Of a stretch of DNA of 35,953 bases, positions 4,796 to 30,661 are shown piece after piece. Under the pieces are notes generated by a model. The model saw only the letters and a list, made by a program, of their open reading frames with translations. It did no database searches and was not told the origin of the DNA. A program made the translations under genes and the position numbers. The stretch comes from an uncultured Myxococcales bacterium (GTDB taxonomy: Bacteria > Myxococcota_A > UBA9042): contig CAJBNH010000146.1 in NCBI GenBank assembly GCA_903955385.1, positions 1 through 35,953 on the forward strand, read 5' to 3'. How positions within the stretch are numbered: the stretch's first letter is position 1; each line of letters starts with the position of its first letter.

Positions 4796-6547
4796 TCAGT
4801 CACCGACTCCCTTGGGATGGCACTCGTAGCATTTCGCGCTGGTATAGGTGTAATCGAGCACTTCGGTGTGGTCTTTGGCAGTGGCCGCCTGCGCATGACA
4901 GCCGCTCGACAGACACGTGTACGCCTTGAAACTGGCTGGGTTGTCGTGGCACTTCGTACACGCGAGGTTCGCGTGCTTGCCGGACGAGATCGGGAAGAAC
5001 GGCGTGTGGTTCACCATCTTCGCCGGTTGCCAAGCGGTCGCAGAGTGGCAGCTCTCGCAACCGGTCGGGAACCCCAGCAGGACGTGGTCGGGATTCTTGG
5101 CCGTCAGAAAGTTGGTCTGGTGGCAAGCGAAACACAGCTTGGGCGGGGGCGACGGCGTCGTGTGGCACGCGGTACACGGGGTCACCGTGTGCTTGCCCAG
5201 CAGCGCAAAGACCTTGGCGTGGTCGAAGCCGGGGGCGGGCTTCCAGTCGGCGGTGGTGTGGCAGGTCTCGCAGGCGGTCGCGATGCCGAGGGCTTGGTGG
5301 TTGGGCGCGGTGGTGGCGAGGTAGGCGGGCACGTGGCAGCCGGCGCAGGTCTTGGGCGGCGGCTGGTTGGTGGTGTGGCACTTGGTGCAGGCGACCGGCA
5401 CGTGCTTGCCCAGCAGCGGAAAGACCTTGGCGTGGTCAAAGCCGGGGGCGGGCTTCCAGTCGGCGGTGGTGTGGCAGGCGTCGCAGGTGGTGGGCAGGCC
5501 CGTGGTCTGGTGGTTGGGCTGCGTCGTGGCCAGAAAGGCGGCCATGTGGCAGCCCACGCAGGTCTTGGGCGGCGGCTGGTTGCTGGTGTGGCATTGGGCG
5601 CACGCGACCGGCAGATGTTTGCCCAGCAGCGGAAAGACCTTGGCATGGTCGAACCCCGACGCCGGCAGCCATGCGTCGGCGGTGTGGCAGACCTCGCAAG
5701 TGGTCGACAAGCCGATGGCGGCGTGATTCGGCTTTGTTGTGGCTGCATACGCCGGCGCATGGCAGGCCGCGCAGGTCTTGGGCGGCGGGGCGTCGGACAC
5801 GTGGCAACCCGTGCAGGCGGCCGTCGCGTGCTTGCCCAGCAGCGGGAATACCAGGTCGTGGTTCAACCCGGTTGCGGGCTTCCACCCGACGGGCGAGTGG
5901 CACGTCTCGCACGTGGTCGGCAGCCCGACGGCGGCGTGATTCGGCTTCGTCGTGGCCGCGTACGCCGCCGCATGGCACGCAGCGCAGGACTTGGGCGGCG
6001 GCTGGTCCGACACATGGCAACCCGCGCACGCAGCTGCCGTGTGCTTGCCCAGCAGCGGGAACACCGTGGCGTGGTCAAACCCTGCGGTTGGCTTCCAGGA
6101 ATCGTTCGTGTGGCACTTGCCGCAGTCCGTCGAGATCCCGATCGCGACGTGGTTGGGCGCCTGGGTCGCCAAGTAGTCCGGTTCGTGGCACGCCGCGCAC
6201 GTCTTGGCCGGCAACTGCGCGCCGGTGTGACAAGCCTGACAGACCACCGTGGCGTGCTTGCCCAGCAGCGGAAATGCGAGCGCGTGGTCGAATCCCTTGG
6301 CCGGCCGCCACGCCTTGGTCTGGTGGCACTGGGCGCAGTCGGTGCCGAAACCCTTGGTTTGGTGGTTGGGCAGCACCGTGGTCTGCCAGTCCGGGGTATG
6401 GCAGCCCGCGCACGGCACCTGGGTGGTCGAGGTCGCGCTGGTGGTGTTGGGTTGGCAGCTCGCAAGGGCAAGCACGACGGCGAACCACAGGCCAAGACGG
6501 GCAACGCGCCGGTGCCGGGAAGGGCATTGTAGTTTCGGTTCGTCCAT
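4796..6547 (-). CDS. Multiheme c-type cytochrome lipoprotein (23 predicted haems)
   Basis: A 583-aa exported cytochrome. The N-terminus is basic, then a hydrophobic stretch ending in lipobox LASC (lipidated Cys31). The rest is almost entirely haem-binding: 22 CXXCH motifs plus one CX4CH (CLSSGCH). Six exact 71-residue units each hold three CXXCH and three further invariant His (in FDH, GKH and PNH), then a degenerate seventh unit with the CX4CH; one haem motif precedes and one follows the array. One spare His per haem implies bis-His, low-potential haems arranged as a wire. Start: ATG 6547 has GAGG 10 nt upstream; GTG 6553 would add two residues. It stands alone; no porin or quinol-oxidising partner is adjacent. 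A role in periplasmic or outer-membrane electron transfer is inferred; the acceptor is unknown. Confidence 0.93.
   Translation of the reverse strand: MDEPKLQCPSRHRRVARLGLWFAVVLALASCQPNTTSATSTTQVPCAGCHTPDWQTTVLPNHQTKGFGTDCAQCHQTKAWRPAKGFDHALAFPLLGKHATVVCQACHTGAQLPAKTCAACHEPDYLATQAPNHVAIGISTDCGKCHTNDSWKPTAGFDHATVFPLLGKHTAAACAGCHVSDQPPPKSCAACHAAAYAATTKPNHAAVGLPTTCETCHSPVGWKPATGLNHDLVFPLLGKHATAACTGCHVSDAPPPKTCAACHAPAYAATTKPNHAAIGLSTTCEVCHTADAWLPASGFDHAKVFPLLGKHLPVACAQCHTSNQPPPKTCVGCHMAAFLATTQPNHQTTGLPTTCDACHTTADWKPAPGFDHAKVFPLLGKHVPVACTKCHTTNQPPPKTCAGCHVPAYLATTAPNHQALGIATACETCHTTADWKPAPGFDHAKVFALLGKHTVTPCTACHTTPSPPPKLCFACHQTNFLTAKNPDHVLLGFPTGCESCHSATAWQPAKMVNHTPFFPISSGKHANLACTKCHDNPASFKAYTCLSSGCHAQAATAKDHTEVLDYTYTSAKCYECHPKGVGD
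5060..6337 (-). repeat. Six in-frame 213-bp tandem units encoding a triheme module
   Basis: The LLGKH-encoding anchor recurs at 6256, 6043, 5830, 5617, 5404 and 5191, exactly 213 bp apart each time, giving six 71-codon units. A seventh copy (anchor near 4975) is offset 216 bp and divergent. The units around 5191 and 5404 are nearly identical over about 80 bp, which suggests recent duplication or gene conversion; the N-terminal units are more diverged. Confidence 0.9.
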
Positions 6548-11353: not shown

Positions 11354-17875
<6,522 letters not shown>

Positions 17876-18197
17876 GCAATGACTCCAGGTCGTTCCCGCG
17901 CGCGTGGGACGTGACCCTAGCGACACGTGCAGGTTGCGGTCAAGACGTCATTTTGAGTTCGCGTCGCGGCCAGTGAGGTGAGCCGCGTGCGCCGTGGGGG
18001 GGAAGCCTAATCGCTAGCGCGATCGGGGTCGTCTGGCAGGCGTCGCATTCGCGGAAAGCAACGCCAAAGGAGTGAGCGGCGGGTGGAGCTGCCCCGGTTC
18101 ACCACAAGCGCAGGTCCTGCCAACCGGGCCGATGCAAGTCGATGCTCTGACGCTTTCGACTGGCCTAACGAAACTGCACAAACCGCGGTGGGTCACC
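17876..18197. other. Intergenic region upstream of the giant surface protein
   Basis: 322 bp between two minus-strand genes. It holds the candidate promoter at 17914-17943 and a weak ATCGC/GCGAT hairpin at 18010-18023 without a T tract. No coding sequence with a credible start, and no RNA gene, was seen. Confidence 0.5.
17914..17943 (-). promoter_or_regulatory. Candidate sigma-70-type promoter for the giant surface protein
   Basis: On the minus strand TTGACC (17943-17938) is followed after 18 bp by TAGGGT (17919-17914), about 40 bp before the start codon at 17875. The -35 matches consensus at 5 of 6 positions and the -10 at only 3 of 6. Confidence 0.3.
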
Positions 18198-22383: not shown

Positions 22384-22536
22384 AAACACGACCGCCTGCG
22401 TCCCCTATCCCGCCAAATTACTTTCGTAAAGTTCGGCATGTGCGCCGGGCGCCGTCGCTTTGCCGGTTGCGTCGATCAGGCCGAGCCTGCGAGACGGGTG
22501 TCGCCCGCAAAAAGCTGAACGCGTGCGGTAACGCCA

Positions 22537-22551
22537 GGACCACTTTGGTCC
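22537..22551. promoter_or_regulatory. Short inverted repeat GGACCA-N3-TGGTCC
   Basis: Six-base perfect arms with a CTT centre, 11 bp upstream of the Rex-like dyad. It could be an operator half of a composite site or a small RNA hairpin; no known consensus is matched. Confidence 0.3.
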
Positions 22552-22562
22552 GACATCGGCGT

Positions 22563-22578
22563 CGTGAACTTCTTCACG
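22563..22578. promoter_or_regulatory. Rex-like operator upstream of the NADH-linked hydrogenase
   Basis: CGTGAA-CTTC-TTCACG is a perfect 6-4-6 dyad. The Rex consensus is close to TGTGAA-N4-TTCACA, so GTGAA/TTCAC and the 4-bp spacing match, and only the outermost base of each arm differs. Rex senses NADH/NAD+ and commonly represses fermentative and hydrogenase genes, which fits the NuoE/NuoF/HydA operon starting 380 bp downstream. No rex gene is in the window, and the long distance to the first start codon is a caveat. Confidence 0.45.
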
Positions 22579-22681
22579 GCAGTTGGCGAGACGGGTTGCA
22601 TGCTCCAGGGGGGAGGTCGATGCTGGCGCCAACACGGTCGCCTGAGACAGTCGGCCGTGTTGCTCGTTCTGGTGCTCTCGC

Positions 22682-22699
22682 GGCGGTGCACGCACCGCC
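22682..22699. promoter_or_regulatory. 8-bp inverted repeat GGCGGTGC-AC-GCACCGCC
   Basis: Perfect arms with a 2-bp centre, lying 260 bp before the hydrogenase operon. It could be a regulator binding site or a leader hairpin; no T tract follows and the regulator is unknown. Confidence 0.35.
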
Positions 22700-22958
22700 A
22701 ACGGCCTCCAGCGAACGCGCGGTCGCTCCCACCAGTTCTCCTGGGATGCGGTCGCACGACGCCGAGCCGAAAGAGGCTTGCTACTGGTCTGGTTCTTCCG
22801 TTTCTGGTCCCGGCCTCGCGTCCCCCCGCGCTCGCTTGGACTCTGCTGAACTTCGATACTTCTTTCGACGCGTGCGTGCGGGTCCGTTGGGACTCGTCGA
22901 TGCGCGCCGCAGCCCCAGGGTCCGGCACATCCCCGGTCCCGCCACATCAGGAGGCTTC

Positions 22959-23507
22959 ATGCTGCCCGCACAGCAAGCCCGACTCGCAGCTGACATCGCC
23001 GAGCTGGCCGACCACCATGGCCGTTGCCGCAGCGCCCTTTTGCCGATTCTGCAGGGCATCCAACGCGATCATCACCAGATCAGCGACTTTGCCATGCAAG
23101 AGGTCGCTCGCCAGCTCGACATCCACCCCGTCGAGGTCTACGGCGTCGTCACCTTCTACTCGTTCCTGAACACCGGGCGCGAAGGCCGCATGGTCGTTCG
23201 CCTTTGTCGGACCATCAGCTGCGACATGCAGCACAAGGACCGCATCGCCCGCCAGCTCGAGAACGATCTGGGCATCAAGTTCGGCGACACGACGTCGGAC
23301 GGTCGCTTCACGTTGCAGTGGGCCCACTGCCTCGGCATGTGTGACCAGGGACCCGCGCTGCTGGTCAACGACCAGGTGTTCACGCGCGTCAACTGCGAAC
23401 AGGTGCACGAGATCCTCGAGAACTGCCGCAAGACGTTCACTGCCAGCGGTCACGTGCTGACGACCGGTCATGGCCACGGCACTGCGAAGGAGGCGTTCGC
23501 CCGATGA
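22959..23507 (+). CDS. hydC: NuoE-like [2Fe-2S] subunit of [FeFe]-hydrogenase
   Basis: 182 aa, a thioredoxin-like ferredoxin of the NuoE/HydC/HndA family that relays electrons between the NuoF-like subunit and HydA. The four cluster ligands are in CRTISC (Cx4C) and CLGMC (Cx3C), the classic NuoE arrangement; the N-terminal helical part (LLPILQGIQRDHHQIS) is also typical. ATG 22959 has AGGAGG 5 nt upstream. Its stop overlaps the next start by 4 nt (ATGA), so the two are translationally coupled. Context with HydA rather than other Nuo genes identifies the complex. Confidence 0.93.
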   Translation: MLPAQQARLAADIAELADHHGRCRSALLPILQGIQRDHHQISDFAMQEVARQLDIHPVEVYGVVTFYSFLNTGREGRMVVRLCRTISCDMQHKDRIARQLENDLGIKFGDTTSDGRFTLQWAHCLGMCDQGPALLVNDQVFTRVNCEQVHEILENCRKTFTASGHVLTTGHGHGTAKEAFAR

Positions 23508-24694
23508 GCACTCGCAACCCCATCCTCTTCAATGACATCCCCGCCGAGTCCGGTCTGCGTCGCGCGCTGGAGATGCATCCCTTGGACATCGTGGCGGAAG
23601 TCCGCGCCTCTGGCCTGAAAGGTCGTGGCGGCGCCGGCTTTCCCACTGCGATGAAGTGGCAGCTTGCCGCAGCGGCGGAGGGCGCCACCAAGTACGTCGT
23701 CTGCAACGCTGACGAGGGCGAGCCCGGCACGTTCAAGGACCGCGTGCTCCTGTCCGACTTCGCCGATCTGGTGTTCGAGGGCATGACCATCGCCTCGCTT
23801 GCCATTGGTGCGACCGGCGGCATCGTGTACCTGCGCGGCGAGTACACCTATCTGGTGGCGCATCTGGAGAGCGTTCTGGCGCGTCGGCGGCAGGCCAATC
23901 TGCTGGGCAACGACATTCTGGGACGCAAGGACTGGAACTTCGACATCGTCATCCACCTCGGCTCGGGCGCGTATGTGTGCGGCGAGGAGACGGCGCTGAT
24001 CGAGTCGCTGGAAGGTCACCGCGGCGAGCCGCGCAACCGTCCGCCGTTCCCGGTCAATACCGGCTACATGGGGCGCCCGACGATCGTGAACAACGTCGAG
24101 ACCTTGTGTCTTGCCGCGCGCGTGCTGGCGCGCGGAGCGACCTGGTTCCGGCAGTACGGCACGCACGCCTCGACCGGGTCCAAGCTGTTCTCGGTATCGG
24201 GTGACTGCGCCAAGCCCGGCGTCTATGAGCTGCCGATGGGCATCACCATCGCCGATCTGCTGGTCGAGGTCGGCGGTCTGGGTGCCAAGGCGGTGCAGGT
24301 CGGTGGCGCGTCGGGACACTGCGTCCCCTCACGGCTGTTCGATCGGACGTTGGCTTTCGAAGACGCGCCCACGGGCGGGTCGATCATCATCTTCGGTCAG
24401 CAGCGGGACATGCTCGCGGTGGCCCGTAACTTTATGGAATTCTTCGTCGACGAGTCGTGTGGCCAGTGCACCCCGTGCCGCTATGGCAACTCGGTGCTGC
24501 TGGATGGCATCGAGCGGCTGGAGAAGGGCACCTGCTCGATCCGGCACCTCAATGAGCTGAAGGCGCTGGGCGAGACGATGGAGCTGGCCTCCAAGTGCGG
24601 TCTGGGCCAATCGGCTCCCAAGGCTTTCCTCTCGATCATCGAGCACTTCCACGATGAAGTGCTGGGTCGTGAACCGCCGCATTTCGCCGCCTGA
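23504..24694 (+). CDS. hydB: NuoF-like NAD(H)/FMN subunit of [FeFe]-hydrogenase, short form
   Basis: 396 aa. It binds FMN and NAD(H) and carries one [4Fe-4S] cluster. Motifs: GRGGAGFPTAMKW (FMN/NADH loop), CNADEGEPGTFKDR, GAYVCGEETALIESLEG, and C-terminal SCGQCTPCR with a further Cys about 40 residues on (CSIRHL). It has only the NuoF core: the N-terminal thioredoxin-like [2Fe-2S] domain and the C-terminal 2[4Fe-4S] ferredoxin domain of Thermotoga-type HydB are both absent. This argues for a simpler NADH-dependent enzyme rather than a classical ferredoxin/NADH bifurcating one, as inference. Overlaps hydC by 4 nt; hydA starts 43 nt after its stop. Confidence 0.93.
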   Translation: MSTRNPILFNDIPAESGLRRALEMHPLDIVAEVRASGLKGRGGAGFPTAMKWQLAAAAEGATKYVVCNADEGEPGTFKDRVLLSDFADLVFEGMTIASLAIGATGGIVYLRGEYTYLVAHLESVLARRRQANLLGNDILGRKDWNFDIVIHLGSGAYVCGEETALIESLEGHRGEPRNRPPFPVNTGYMGRPTIVNNVETLCLAARVLARGATWFRQYGTHASTGSKLFSVSGDCAKPGVYELPMGITIADLLVEVGGLGAKAVQVGGASGHCVPSRLFDRTLAFEDAPTGGSIIIFGQQRDMLAVARNFMEFFVDESCGQCTPCRYGNSVLLDGIERLEKGTCSIRHLNELKALGETMELASKCGLGQSAPKAFLSIIEHFHDEVLGREPPHFAA

Positions 24695-24737
24695 CGCACC
24701 GATTCCCGACCTCCAACTCCTCTCGGAGGACAAGTCC

Positions 24738-26663
24738 ATGGCATTCCTCAAGCCCATCTCTCCCAACACTTCCACCACGCGCGCGCCGCAGAGTCAGCGC
24801 CGCAACGAACCCGAGGCGATCGGCCCCGGGACGATGGTGTCGGTGACCATCGACGGCGCCACGACCGAAGTGCCTTACGCCACAACGATCCTGGACGCCG
24901 CCAAAAAGCTGAACATCAAGATCCCGACGTTGTGCCACCACCCCGACCTGTGCGTCGCGGGCGTGTGTCGCATCTGCGTGGTCGAGATCGAAGGCATGCG
25001 CAACCTGCAGGCCTCGTGCGCCTATCCGCTGACGCAGCCGCTGAAGGTCAACACCCACAGCCGCACGGTGCGTCAGGCACGGCGGCACGTGCTAGACCTG
25101 ATGCTCGCCAATCACTACGGACAGTGCACAACCTGTTGGCGCAACGGCAATTGCGAGCTGCAGCAGCTGGCCGAAGAGTACGGTGTCGACATGACGCGCT
25201 TCGGCAGCGTCGTGACGCCCAAGCACGAGATCGACCGGTCGAGCTACTCTGTCGTCCGCGACATGAACAAGTGCATCGGCTGCCGTCGCTGCGTGCGCAC
25301 GTGCATCGACTTGCAGGAAGTAGGCGCGCTGGAGGCCACCCGCCGTGGCGCCGAGACGCTGATCTCGACCTTCCAGGACAAGCCGCTGGGCGACGTGGTC
25401 TGCATCGCGTGCGGCCAGTGCATCAACCGCTGCCCGACCGGCGCGCTGATGGCCAACGACCCGACCGACGACGTGTGGGCGGCGATCGACGACCCGAAGA
25501 AGCACGTCGTCATCCAGACGGCCCCCTCACCCCGCGCGGCGATTGGCGAGTGCTTTGGCCAACCTCCGGGCACCGCGCTGACGTTCGAGCTGAACACGGC
25601 GCTGCGTTACTGCGGATTCGACAAGATCTTCGACACCAACTTCACGGCCGACCTGACGATCATCGAAGAGGGGACAGAGCTGCTGATGCGCCTGCATCGG
25701 GCGCTGGTGGGCGGCGACACGACGGCGGCGGTGCCCCAGTTCACCTCGTGCTCGCCTGGCTGGGTGAAGTACCTGGAGCACTTCTACCCCGAGATGATCC
25801 CGCACATGTCGACGGCCAAGAGCCCGCAGCAGATGTTCGGCACGATCATCAAGACCTACTACGCCAAGGTGCACAACATCGACCCGGCGGACATCGTGAC
25901 CGTCGCGCTGATGCCGTGCTCGGCCAAGAAGTTCGAGTGCAACCGTCCCGAGATGGCGGCATCGGGCTACAAGGACGTCGACTTCGGCCTGACGACCCGC
26001 GAGATGGCGGCGATGATCAAGGAGGCGGGCGTTGACCTGCCCAACGTCCCACCGTCCGAGTTCGACTCTCCGTTTGGCACCGCGACCGGCTCTGGCGTGG
26101 TGTTCGGCGCGACCGGCGGCGTGATGGAAGCGGCGCTGCGCACGGTCATCGAGCTCGTGACTGGCGAGAAGGTCGAGACCCTGTTCGAGAACGCCAACAT
26201 CATGCCCGTGCGCGGCTTTGACGGCGTGCGTTACGCGGAATTGAAGATCCCCAAGGTGGGGCCGGTGCCGCCGATCCTGCAGCACCTGTTCAAGGACTTC
26301 GAGTGGCTCAATGGCGTGACGCTCAAGGTCGGCGTGGCCCACGGCACCGCCAACGCCAAGCGCGTGATCGAGGACATCAAGGCCGGCGGCAAGTTCTCGG
26401 AGTGCCACTTCATCGAGTTCATGGCGTGTCCCGGCGGCTGCCTGGGCGGCGGCGGCCAGCCGATCCCCACCAGCCCGGAGATTCGGGCCGCGCGCGCCAA
26501 GGCCATCTACGCAGAGGACATGGGCTACGACATCCGCAAGTCGCACGAAAACCCCGATGTCCTGAGGATCTACGAGGAGTTCCTGACCGACGGACCCTGC
26601 GGTCACAAGAGCCACGAGTTGCTGCACACGAGCTACACCGTGCGCGGACGCTTCATCCTCTAA
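24738..26663 (+). CDS. hydA: [FeFe]-hydrogenase catalytic subunit (modular, NuoG-like N-terminus)
   Basis: 641 aa; reversibly reduces protons to H2. From the N-terminus: a [2Fe-2S] ferredoxin domain (Cys66, 77, 80, 94); a His-Cys3 [4Fe-4S] site (His126, Cys130, 133, 139); two [4Fe-4S] clusters (CIGCRRCVRTC 179-189, CIACGQCINRC 222-232); then the H-cluster domain. H-cluster motifs are L1 TSCSPGW (336-342), L2 MPCSAKKFE (392-400), ATGGVMEAALR (458-468) and L3 FMACPGGCLGGGGQP (561-575). L1 has Ser339 where clostridial CpI has its second Cys. ATG 24738 has GGAGGA 8 nt upstream. This is the modular type of the trimeric NAD(P)H-linked enzymes (group A3). No Tat or Sec signal: cytoplasmic. Confidence 0.96.
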   Translation: MAFLKPISPNTSTTRAPQSQRRNEPEAIGPGTMVSVTIDGATTEVPYATTILDAAKKLNIKIPTLCHHPDLCVAGVCRICVVEIEGMRNLQASCAYPLTQPLKVNTHSRTVRQARRHVLDLMLANHYGQCTTCWRNGNCELQQLAEEYGVDMTRFGSVVTPKHEIDRSSYSVVRDMNKCIGCRRCVRTCIDLQEVGALEATRRGAETLISTFQDKPLGDVVCIACGQCINRCPTGALMANDPTDDVWAAIDDPKKHVVIQTAPSPRAAIGECFGQPPGTALTFELNTALRYCGFDKIFDTNFTADLTIIEEGTELLMRLHRALVGGDTTAAVPQFTSCSPGWVKYLEHFYPEMIPHMSTAKSPQQMFGTIIKTYYAKVHNIDPADIVTVALMPCSAKKFECNRPEMAASGYKDVDFGLTTREMAAMIKEAGVDLPNVPPSEFDSPFGTATGSGVVFGATGGVMEAALRTVIELVTGEKVETLFENANIMPVRGFDGVRYAELKIPKVGPVPPILQHLFKDFEWLNGVTLKVGVAHGTANAKRVIEDIKAGGKFSECHFIEFMACPGGCLGGGGQPIPTSPEIRAARAKAIYAEDMGYDIRKSHENPDVLRIYEEFLTDGPCGHKSHELLHTSYTVRGRFIL

Positions 26664-26669
26664 CCGCCG

Positions 26670-26684
26670 TCCGCAAGCTGCGGA
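26670..26684. terminator. Hairpin immediately after hydA
   Basis: TCCGCA-AGC-TGCGGA, perfect 6-bp stem, starting 6 nt after the hydA stop. No T tract follows, so it may attenuate or protect the 3' end rather than terminate. Confidence 0.3.
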
Positions 26685-26706
26685 TTGCGGTGCTGAACAG
26701 GAGGTT

Positions 26707-26734
26707 CCCTGCCTTCGCCTTGTGCGGGGCAGGG
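26707..26734. terminator. Second hairpin between hydA and hydG
   Basis: CCCTGCC (26707-26713) pairs with GGCAGGG (26728-26734) across a 14-nt loop. Together with the hairpin at 26670 it could lower read-through from the structural genes into the maturase genes. No T tract. Confidence 0.3.
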
Positions 26735-26877
26735 GGCCTCTGCCATGCTCCGGGCGCGTCCCTCCTCCTTCGCGCCGGAGACACGGCTGTTCGCCGGGCG
26801 CTGCCCCCCCACGATAAGGAAGGCGCCCGGCGGACGGCCCCTTGGCTCGCCCAAGTCCTCATTCCCCCTGGTGTGTG

Positions 26878-28278
26878 ATGCCCCTGACCGAGACCGCTCC
26901 GACCATCGACCATTCCCTCATCGAGGCCACTCTTTCCCAAGTTTCGACCCACGACCCCAAGCGGATCCGCGAGATTCTGGCCAAGGCGCGCGAGCTGAAA
27001 GGGCTTTCGTTCGACGACCTGCCGCCGCTGATGGCCCTGCGCGACCCGGACCTGCTCGAGGAGCTGTTCGACACCGCCCGTCAGGTCAAGCAGCAGATCT
27101 ACGGCAACCGCATGGTGCTGTTCGCGCCGCTGTACATCTCGAACCTGTGCGCAAACGAGTGCCTGTACTGCGCCTTTCGCGCGTCGAACACCGGCTTGCA
27201 CCGCCGGATGCTGACTCAGGACGAGATCGCAGCAGAGGTCGGCGCGCTGGTCGACGAGGGGCACAAGCGCCTGCTTGTCGTGGCGGGAGAGACGCACCGG
27301 GCGGCCGACTTCGAGCACACCCTCGAAGCCATCCAGACCGTCTATGCGACAGCGCATGGCAAGGCGAACATTCGTCGCGTCAACGTGAACCTCGCGCCCA
27401 TGAGCGTGCCCGATTTTCGGCGCCTGAAAGCAGCCAATATCGGCACATTTCAGCTCTTTCAGGAGACGTACCACCGGCCGACCTATGCACAGATGCACAT
27501 CCGCGGGCGCAAGGCCGACTACGACTACCGCCTCTCAGCCATCGACCGGGCCATGACGGCAGGCATCGACGACTGCGGCATCGGTGCGCTGTTCGGCCTG
27601 TACGACTGGCGATTCGAGCTGCTGGCCGTGATGGCCCACGCGGCCCATCTGGAAAAGACGTTCGGCGTCGGTCCGCACACCATCAGCGTGCCGCGCATCG
27701 AGCCTGCCGACGGTTCCGACCTGGCCAGTGCGCCGCCGCACGCCGTGAGCGATCAGGACTTCCGCAAGATCGTCGCGCTGTTGCGCATCGCCGTGCCGTA
27801 CACCGGCATCATCCTGTCGACCCGCGAGAGCGCGGCCATGCGACACGAGACCTTCGCGTTGGGCGTGTCGCAGATCTCGGCCGGCAGCCGCACGAGTCCG
27901 GGAGGCTACGCCGACGCAGGGCCGGACGACGGGGCGCAGTTCTCGCTGGGCGACACCCGCAGCCTGCGCGAAGTCGTGCAGGACATCGCCGGTTTGGGCT
28001 ACATTCCCTCGTTCTGCACGGCCTGTTACCGGATGGGGCGCACCGGCGCGGACTTCATGGACCTGGCCAAGCCGGGCGACATCAAGACGCACTGCGAACC
28101 CAATGGCCTCGCGTCCTTTCAGGAGTACCTGGAGGACTTCGCGACCCCAGACGAGCGAGCAGTGGGAGAGAGCGCCATTGCCAAGGTGCTGGCGAATCTC
28201 GACGATCCGCAGGTGCACGAAAGGGCGCGGCGCATGGTCGACGCAGTGCGAAAGGGCAAGCGCGACGTCTACTGCTGA
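26878..28278 (+). CDS. hydG: HydG, radical SAM tyrosine lyase for H-cluster assembly
   Basis: 466 aa, normal for HydG. It cleaves tyrosine to give the CO and CN- ligands of the H-cluster iron centre. The radical-SAM cluster motif is Cys91-x3-Cys95-x2-Cys98 (NLCANECLYCAF). The C-terminal auxiliary cluster motif CX2CX22C (Cys380, Cys383, Cys406) is intact, which separates HydG from ThiH. ATG 26878 gives the standard N-terminus; no clear Shine-Dalgarno is visible (CTGGTGTGTG precedes it). It lies 214 bp after hydA and 32 bp before hydF, so the maturation genes may have their own promoter. Confidence 0.95.
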   Translation: MPLTETAPTIDHSLIEATLSQVSTHDPKRIREILAKARELKGLSFDDLPPLMALRDPDLLEELFDTARQVKQQIYGNRMVLFAPLYISNLCANECLYCAFRASNTGLHRRMLTQDEIAAEVGALVDEGHKRLLVVAGETHRAADFEHTLEAIQTVYATAHGKANIRRVNVNLAPMSVPDFRRLKAANIGTFQLFQETYHRPTYAQMHIRGRKADYDYRLSAIDRAMTAGIDDCGIGALFGLYDWRFELLAVMAHAAHLEKTFGVGPHTISVPRIEPADGSDLASAPPHAVSDQDFRKIVALLRIAVPYTGIILSTRESAAMRHETFALGVSQISAGSRTSPGGYADAGPDDGAQFSLGDTRSLREVVQDIAGLGYIPSFCTACYRMGRTGADFMDLAKPGDIKTHCEPNGLASFQEYLEDFATPDERAVGESAIAKVLANLDDPQVHERARRMVDAVRKGKRDVYC

Positions 28279-28310
28279 GCGAGCGTTGTTGAGCACGCAC
28301 AGGGGGTTCG

Positions 28311-29570
28311 ATGCGGTCCACACCCAAGGCCCAGCGTCTGTCCATCGGCCTGTTCGGTCGCCGCAACGTGGGCAAGTCGAGCTTGCTGAACGCGCTGACC
28401 GGCCAGGATCTGGCCATCGTGTCGCCAGAAGCGGGCACGACCACCGACCCCGTTGAAAAGCCGATGGAGCTGTTGCCGTTGGGGCCGGTCGTCTTCATCG
28501 ACACCGCCGGTCTGGACGACGAGGGCGTGGTCGGACTGCAACGCGTGCACAAGTCGCGGCTGGCGCTGGGGCGGGTGGACATCGCCCTGGTGGTCGCGGA
28601 AGGCAAGGTGTGGACCGACCACGAGGCGTCGCTGCTCGACGAAGTGGTGCGGCGCAACATCCGGCCCGTCGTGTGCTTCAACAAGATCGACCTAGGCGAG
28701 CCGGACCCCAAGCTGCTTCGGCACCTGCGGTCGCGCGGCGTGGCGGTGGTCGAGGTCTCAGCGTCGCAGGGGTGGGGCATCGACCGCTTGCGTGAGGCCC
28801 TGTTCCACGCAATGCCTCAGGATTTCTACGAATCCCAGGTACTGATGGCCGACCTGGTGCCGCCGGGCAAGGTTGCGGTGCTGGTGATGCCGGTCGACAG
28901 CGAAGCGCCCCGCGGTCGACTGATCCTGCCGCAAGCGCAGGCGGTGCGAGACCTGTTGGATAACCGCGCCATCTCGGTCGTGTGTCAGGACGCGGAGCTG
29001 CCCAAGGCGTTGGCGGCCCTGCGGGAGCCTCCGGCGCTGGTTGTCACGGACTCGCAGGCGTTTGCTCAGGTATCCGCCGCGACGCCGCCCGGGGTGCCGC
29101 TGACCTCGTTCTCGATTCTGTTTGCCAGGATGCAGGCGGACTTGACCGAGCTGGCGCGGGGTACCGCGGGTTTGGCGCGGCTGCGTGACGGCGACCGCGT
29201 GCTGCTGGCGGAAGCGTGCACCCACCACCCGACTGAGGACGACATCGCGCGCGTCAAGATCCCCCGCTGGCTGGAGAAGAAGACCGGCGCGCAGCTCGGG
29301 TACGAATTCCAGCGCGGCCACGAATTCCCGGAAGACCTGACGCCCTGGCGAGCCGTCGTGCACTGCGGCGGCTGCATGGCGAACCGTCGCGAGATGCGCG
29401 CCAAGCTGTGGCGGGCCCAGCAACAGGGCGTCGCGATGACGAATTTCGGCATGACGATCGCTTGGAGCTTGGGGATCCTCGACCGCGCGTTGGGGCCATT
29501 CCCTGAGGCGCTGGCGGCCTATCACAAGGCCAAGGCCGAAGTGGCGGCGACGGCAGAGGTGGATGCGTGA
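28311..29570 (+). CDS. hydF: HydF, GTPase scaffold for H-cluster assembly
   Basis: 419 aa. It carries the assembled 2Fe subcluster precursor and delivers it to apo-HydA. The N-terminal GTPase domain has G1 GRRNVGKSS, G3 DTAG and G4 NKID. The C-terminal cluster-binding motif CXHX45HCXXC (ACTHH ... HCGGC) matches the family consensus of 44-53 spacer residues. ATG 28311 is preceded by a GGGGG run about 4 nt away. The stop overlaps the hydE start by 4 nt (GTGA), so hydE translation is probably coupled. Confidence 0.95.
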   Translation: MRSTPKAQRLSIGLFGRRNVGKSSLLNALTGQDLAIVSPEAGTTTDPVEKPMELLPLGPVVFIDTAGLDDEGVVGLQRVHKSRLALGRVDIALVVAEGKVWTDHEASLLDEVVRRNIRPVVCFNKIDLGEPDPKLLRHLRSRGVAVVEVSASQGWGIDRLREALFHAMPQDFYESQVLMADLVPPGKVAVLVMPVDSEAPRGRLILPQAQAVRDLLDNRAISVVCQDAELPKALAALREPPALVVTDSQAFAQVSAATPPGVPLTSFSILFARMQADLTELARGTAGLARLRDGDRVLLAEACTHHPTEDDIARVKIPRWLEKKTGAQLGYEFQRGHEFPEDLTPWRAVVHCGGCMANRREMRAKLWRAQQQGVAMTNFGMTIAWSLGILDRALGPFPEALAAYHKAKAEVAATAEVDA

Positions 29571-30661
29571 ACCGCGACGAGATCCTGACCTGGCTGCGCG
29601 AGGAAGATCCCGAGAAGCTGCAAGGGCTTTGGACGCTTGCCGACACCGCTCGCCAGCAGGGCGTGGGCGATGCCGTGCACCTGCGCGGCCTGATCGAGCT
29701 GTCGAGCCACTGCGTGCGATCATGCGCCTACTGCGGCCTTCGCTGCGGTCGCAAGCCCCTGTCGCGCTATCGCATGTCACCCGACGAGGTGGTGGACTGT
29801 GCGCGGCAGGGCATTCGGCTGGGCTATGGCACCGTGGTGCTGCAGACCGGCGAGGACCCGGGCCTGCGCGCGCCGGACGTTGCGGAGATCGTGCGTCGAA
29901 TCAAGGCGCTGCCCACCGAGTCAGGTGTGCCGCTGGCCGTGACGCTGAGTCTGGGAGAGCGCGCCGACGACGAGCTGGCGCTGTGGAAACAGGCGGGCGC
30001 GAACCGCTACCTGCTGCGCTTCGAGACCTCGGACCCGCTTCTGTTCGCACGCATCCACCCATCGCTGCCCGGCCGGCCGTCGGATCGCGTGGCGATGCTG
30101 CGCCGACTGCGGACGCTGGGCTACGAGATCGGCAGCGGCGTGATGGTGGGCATCCCGGGACAGGCGTGGGGCACGCTGGCAGACGATCTGTTGCTGTTCC
30201 GCGAGTTGGACCTCGACATGATCGGCATCGGTCCGTACCTGCCGCACCCCGACACGCCGCTGGGCCGCGGCGACCCGGGCTTTGGGCCGCTCGAGCCCGG
30301 CCAGCAGGTGCCGTCGACTGCGCAGATGACGTGCAAGGCGGTGGCGATCGCGCGGATCCTGTGTCCGCAAGCCAACATCCCCAGCACCACGGCGCTGGCC
30401 ACGCTGGACCCGGACCACGGTCGCGAGGACGGCCTGTCCCGTGGCGCCAACGTCGTGATGCCCAACCTGACCCCGGTGCGCTACCGCGAGAAGTACGACA
30501 TCTACCCCGACAAGGCGTGCCTGCACGAGACCGCAGAGACCTGCGCGGGCTGTCTGCGCGGGCGCATCGAGCAGTTGGGCCGGGTGGTGGGAAGCGGGCA
30601 GGGCGGTCGCATGGGCACAGAAGCGTGCTCGTCCGTTGCACAAATCGCCGTCTCCGGGTAG
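29567..30661 (+). CDS. hydE: HydE, radical SAM maturase for H-cluster assembly
   Basis: 364 aa. A radical SAM enzyme that acts with HydG and HydF in building the azadithiolate-bridged di-iron site. The radical-SAM motif is Cys49-x3-Cys53-x2-Cys56 (HCVRSCAYC). A second motif Cys318-x7-Cys326-x2-Cys329 reproduces the spacing of the accessory cluster site of Thermotoga HydE, which many HydE proteins lack. The GTG start overlaps the hydF stop. It is the last recognised hydrogenase gene; a zinc-ribbon gene begins 43 nt later. Confidence 0.94.
   Translation: MNRDEILTWLREEDPEKLQGLWTLADTARQQGVGDAVHLRGLIELSSHCVRSCAYCGLRCGRKPLSRYRMSPDEVVDCARQGIRLGYGTVVLQTGEDPGLRAPDVAEIVRRIKALPTESGVPLAVTLSLGERADDELALWKQAGANRYLLRFETSDPLLFARIHPSLPGRPSDRVAMLRRLRTLGYEIGSGVMVGIPGQAWGTLADDLLLFRELDLDMIGIGPYLPHPDTPLGRGDPGFGPLEPGQQVPSTAQMTCKAVAIARILCPQANIPSTTALATLDPDHGREDGLSRGANVVMPNLTPVRYREKYDIYPDKACLHETAETCAGCLRGRIEQLGRVVGSGQGGRMGTEACSSVAQIAVSG

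Follow-up and report, generated by a model that had tools for sequence, protein, structure and literature searches.

How a cytochrome with 23 haems might function, and how it came by its length, is the question raised by a gene that has no conduit gene beside it in the window, the whole 35,953-nucleotide stretch of DNA from an uncultured Myxococcales bacterium analysed here. The gene (4796–6547, minus strand) is an uninterrupted frame, running from an ATG at 6547 to a stop codon at 4798–4796, and its ORF and Pfam matches define a 583-aa multihaem c-type lipoprotein. The initial annotation had read it as a 23-haem lipoprotein, and this description was confirmed. The motif count gave 22 CXXCH sites and one CX4CH site, which corresponds to 24 residues per haem. 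The signal peptide (6458–6547, minus strand) carries the lipobox LALASC, with the lipid-bearing Cys31 encoded at 6455–6457 and Gln as the next residue. A lipobox ending the signal peptide, as expected of bacterial lipoproteins, was also found in most homologues by pattern search. Four stretches of the protein matched PF14522 (Cytochrome_C7) with 74.8 bits versus a curated cut-off of 24.8, and PF14537 (Cytochrom_c3_2) was matched well over its cut-off as well.

No porin or conduit gene was found beside the window gene. The earlier remark to this effect is correct for the window, but not for the genome, since a conduit operon with a paralogue is present elsewhere in it. In relatives, the flanking MetH and M13 peptidase genes are on separate contigs or, in G010, on a single contig with about 15 kb between them, and the surroundings of the window gene are therefore uninformative on its function. 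Farther along, the window contains a [FeFe]-hydrogenase set (22440–30661, plus strand) comprising a NuoF-like subunit (PF01512), HydA (PF02906, PF02256), HydF, a radical SAM protein with a BATS domain (HydG-like), and a further radical SAM protein (HydE-like), with a NuoE-like frame before it. It also encodes a 2190-aa secreted protein (11354–17926, minus strand), in the sequence of which many EGF-like Cys repeats could be read, along with repeats rich in Asp and a C-terminus resembling OmpA.

Triheme units and their histidines

Sequence inspection and comparison with homologues delimited an N-terminal half-unit, CAGCH–PNH–CAQCH, with two haems and one spare His (6314–6412, minus strand). It is followed by six back-to-back units (6313–5036), each of exactly 71 aa or 213 bp, which were delimited by self-comparison and are located on the minus strand at 6101–6313 (unit 1), 5888–6100 (unit 2), 5675–5887 (unit 3), 5462–5674 (unit 4), 5249–5461 (unit 5), and 5036–5248 (unit 6). 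The protein ends in a divergent terminal unit of 79 aa (4799–5035, minus strand), recognized by homologue comparison, with the order h-h-C-C-h-C, which is kept in homologues. If C denotes a haem site and h a spare His, the complete layout is C-h-C, (h-h-C-C-h-C) x6, h-h-C-CX4CH-h-C. The exact 213-bp period proposed for the six consecutive units proved real: self-identity of the protein was 48% at lag 71 and at most 12% at every other lag, which is far beyond chance, and self-identity of the DNA at lag 213 was 61%. The six units are equal in length and unequal in sequence, with pairwise identities of 48%–75% at the amino acid level and 60%–81% at the nucleotide level, and 25 positions are invariant in all of them. 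The nearest relative of unit 5, both by self-comparison and in the tree, is unit 4 (81% nucleotide identity).

The extra histidine motifs FDH, GKH, and PNH are conserved in general, as had been stated, but LNH replaces FDH in unit 3 and PDH replaces PNH in unit 6. The assertion that the histidines suffice for bis-His ligation of every haem did not hold, since the 23 haems of the mature protein are matched by 22 spare His, one too few. By the logic of the unit, the haem lacking a distal His would be the first one in the N-terminal half-unit. The CX4CH site (CLSSGCH, 4895–4915, minus strand), located by the motif count inside the terminal unit, had been singled out as unusual. This was rejected, because the site is kept in every member examined of the taxonomic family and is a conserved family mark rather than an oddity. 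Sites of this type are also present in tetrahaem cytochrome c3.

The AF2 model of three units had a pLDDT of 84 and a pTM of 0.50, and neither Foldseek against PDB nor VIA-align returned a match for it. The best phmmer match of the single sequence in PDB reached only an E-value of 0.12. A profile was built from three-unit slices, which aligned in register, while four-unit slices slid by one whole unit in MAFFT. This profile matched 16-haem, MtrF, MtrA, GSU1996, and MtrC chains in PDB, with E-values of 2.4e-11 for the MtrA chain, 4.5e-11 for GSU1996 (3OV0), and 8.6e-10 for MtrC. Despite these profile matches, MtrA and MtrC of Shewanella are decahaem proteins without the 71-residue unit.

The closest likeness in architecture was found in the periplasmic 'nanowire' cytochromes GSU1996, GSU0592, and GSU2210 of Geobacter, which, like the window protein, consist of head-to-tail triheme c7 domains in one chain. 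GSU1996 has four such domains with one His-Met haem in each (PMC10138318). The window protein shares the tandem arrangement but not the ligand order. In the GSU1996 sequence (3OV0), the two leading His are adjacent (SHEFH...MADMDKGKSCGACH), with a Met-bearing stretch ahead of haem 2, whereas the window unit spaces its two leading His 10 apart and has its third His between haems 2 and 3. The lipobox and the family-wide variation in unit number also distinguish the window protein from GSU1996. Naming triheme cytochromes from sequence is difficult (PMC12977616).

The paralogue and its conduit operon

A 14-haem homologue, 57%–59% identical to the window protein across the shared half, is encoded on another contig of the same genome. 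It belongs to a same-strand run of genes for a 36-haem cytochrome, the 14-haem lipoprotein, a barrel candidate of about 600 aa, a 4Fe-4S/FAD oxidoreductase, and a cytochrome b561 (PF01292). The oxidoreductase combines an N-terminal membrane part with 4Fe-4S and FAD/NAD(P) domains. The family of the ~600-aa protein had no match in Pfam. AF2 placed 22 long strands over its residues 177–586, mostly with pLDDT 70–96 in this region, and the top Foldseek matches were all outer-membrane barrels, ushers, or porins (E-values down to 1.6e-9). The gene (L033, 4600–6363, minus strand) is predicted from AF2, Foldseek, and homologue alignment to encode a 22-strand outer-membrane barrel with an N-terminal beta domain. 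The same genome has three matches to PF01578, a family for cytochrome c assembly. A binning error was considered and rejected: the window flanks and the paralogue contig have the same GC content (67.6%) and a tetranucleotide correlation of r 0.985, and therefore belong to one genome.

In the tree of end regions, the window copy pairs with the copy from its own genome (support 93/94). Units of these two copies cluster together (86/90), and window units 4 and 5 are sisters (97/95), with moderate supports in these trees, which are based on short rows. The most economical reading of these sequence relationships is that the window gene would have originated by duplication of the operon lipoprotein gene and subsequently gained units.

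Variable lipoprotein and constant partner

The initial proposal that the length changes by whole triheme units was upheld when unit numbers were compared among relatives. In 16 of 16 complete homologues, including the window protein, the number of haems is 2+3k, ranging from 5 to 59 (5, 8, 11, 14, 17, 20, 23, 29, 53, and 59 are represented), as counted in draft metagenome assemblies with frame breaks in some neighbouring genes. No intact member off this rule was seen among the homologues found. The naive chance of such a pattern is 3^-15, a rough guide at best since the members are related. Within the same family, the lipoprotein adjoining the 36-haem gene has 5 haems in L068, 8 in L066 and L067, 11 in L036, L038, L039, and L040, 14 in L033, 20 in L034, and at least 21 in L035, where the gene is cut by the contig end. 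Its gene is missing from two family operons (L071 and L072), and the lipoprotein is therefore dispensable there. Elsewhere in the phylum, homologues sharing this cap and these units carry 17 (L077), 23 (L078), 29 (L074 and L076), 53 (L075), and 59 haems (L007). Unit identity is 58% within the window protein versus 48% between proteins; therefore, the gains are partly lineage-specific. One genome of the phylum encodes two lipoproteins that follow this plan and stand alone, with 53 haems (L075, 7103–11035, minus strand) and 29 haems (L074, 8080–10326, plus strand); CX3CH and CX4CH sites close their terminal unit.

The partner cytochrome behaves differently, with the same total of 36 haems in each of the eight family genomes that allowed a count. 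It is a single chain in L033, L036, and L067, and a pair of 23- and 13-haem proteins in L034, L038, L071, and L072, as well as in L066, where the 23 haems were counted across a frameshift. The single and paired forms point to fission or fusion of the partner gene with the total unchanged. The 23-haem first cytochrome recurs in L077, L078, and an operon on an Emticicia plasmid. Within the operons, the lipoprotein varies from 5 to 20 haems while the partner is fixed at 36, and this changing tail beside an unchanging body is the most telling result of our analysis. We infer that the 36-haem body bridges a fixed distance, and the need to span it would keep the number of haems constant. The lipoprotein tail would have a free end, so that 213-bp units could be duplicated in tandem or lost, lengthening or shortening it.

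The homologues thereby provide a natural series of one chain, in which a two-haem cap is followed by anything from 1 to 19 triheme units and which would allow length to be varied with few other changes. The dependence of haem-chain electron flow on length has been debated mostly from models and unrelated proteins. Set against the 36-haem partner, this series suggests which part of a conduit spans a fixed gap and which has a free end.

Proposed role, alternatives, and known systems

We consider it probable that the window protein is an outer-membrane-anchored, wire-like c-type cytochrome serving the operon conduit in trans. Stated more broadly, it is most likely a haem wire or electron store that is tethered to the outer membrane and fed by the conduit of the paralogue operon, for which we infer location, direction of electron flow, and ligation. 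All haems except probably the first would be bis-His ligated and stacked as one chain, and the lipid would hold the protein at the outer membrane. Quinone or NAD(P)H could be the pool with which cytochrome b561 and the 4Fe-4S/FAD protein exchange electrons. Electrons would then pass through the 36-haem cytochrome in the periplasm and the barrel to the lipoprotein, in either direction, and the lipoprotein could extend the path outward or store electrons. The lengthened duplicate in the window would work with the operon in trans. The modular nanowire-like interpretation offered initially gains partial support from the 2+3k haem numbers of the relatives. A more specific model, which we put forward tentatively and with less than even confidence, is that of a surface haem wire with its reach set by the copy number of units. 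It would combine a trans-envelope segment fixed at 36 haems with a lipid-anchored tail that can be adjusted, through tandem gain and loss of the 213-bp module, anywhere from 5 to 59 haems, and lengthened stand-alone copies would reside outside the operon.

Several points speak against a wire: an outer-membrane lipoprotein may face the periplasm, as such lipoproteins often do; no conduit gene adjoins the window copy, whose MetH and M13 peptidase neighbours are separated in relatives; two family operons do without the lipoprotein; and the three-unit model has no Foldseek match in PDB. The first point and the isolation of the window copy favour an electron store, or capacitor, at the periplasmic face of the outer membrane, where the number of units would tune capacity and the haems would hold charge when the acceptor runs out. 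This role has been proposed for the triheme tandem GSU1996 (PMC10138318). On the other hand, the sibling gene sits between the conduit cytochrome and barrel genes, and a lipid anchor would be needless for a store. Neither objection is decisive, but on balance we regard a purely storing function as unlikely. It is much harder to accept that the window gene is a decaying duplicate without a present role. Its position as a lone gene outside the operon would fit decay, and no promoter-like hexamers were seen for it with a consensus ill-suited to this genome. However, the frame is intact, all 23 of 23 haem sites are kept, and dN/dS lies at about 0.3 in the closest unit pairs and at 0.3–0.6 in the other pairs tested, which shows, at the level of codons, purifying selection on the units. 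Filament cytochromes such as OmcS take His between subunits, and the one-His deficit and the N-terminal half-unit, common to the window and own-genome copies, which both lack a His before the first haem, could mean that a neighbouring molecule or the partner cytochrome supplies this free haem with a His; such self-assembly is quite improbable, because several relatives (L036, L040, and L068) have a His just upstream of the first haem, so that the deficit is not general, and a lipid attached at that end is an obstacle to stacking.

Long multihaem wires, triheme tandems as in GSU1996, and variable haem numbers in PCC3 were already known, while a partial literature search found no reports on this lipoprotein, its length ladder, or its operon. 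PCC3 clusters comprise a porin together with cytochromes, periplasmic as well as extracellular, that have internal repeats and very many haems (PMC5566968). In the tabulated part of PMC10734462, periplasmic PCC3 cytochromes have 21, 24, or 27 haems, which are already steps of three. The window protein, with its 23 haems and 71-aa repeat, shares the high haem number and internal repeats with PCC3 of the iron oxidisers Sideroxydans and Leptothrix. A porin gene, present in PCC3 clusters, is absent from the window locus, and a predicted 22-strand barrel adjoins the paralogue. The conserved PCC3 inner-membrane protein has five helices and two HX13H motifs; the paralogue operon encodes, perhaps in its place, the PF01292 cytochrome b561 and the 4Fe-4S/FAD protein. 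Unlike PCC3, this operon uses a lipoprotein. Homologous 21-haem genes adjoin 36/46-haem genes in Gammaproteobacteria (L009 and L010).

With the gene plan described here, a putative operon for extracellular electron transfer can be recognised in this phylum as well as in Bacteroidota, one that may escape standard porin models, since its barrel has no Pfam match. In Emticicia oligotrophica, plasmid pEMTOL02 has the same plan, with genes for a membrane protein, a 4Fe-4S/FAD oxidoreductase, 23- and 40-haem cytochromes, and a 538-aa protein. Identity to the query was 40%, with 92% of it covered. The repeat protein of the plasmid is a single 40-haem chain with an ordinary signal peptide, in contrast to the lipoprotein found here, and the functional annotation goes no further than 'cytochrome c3 family'. 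The entire conduit-like operon is located on the plasmid (L073, 494–12292, plus strand) with a CcsA gene in front, and its presence on a plasmid of Bacteroidota hints at transfer between phyla.
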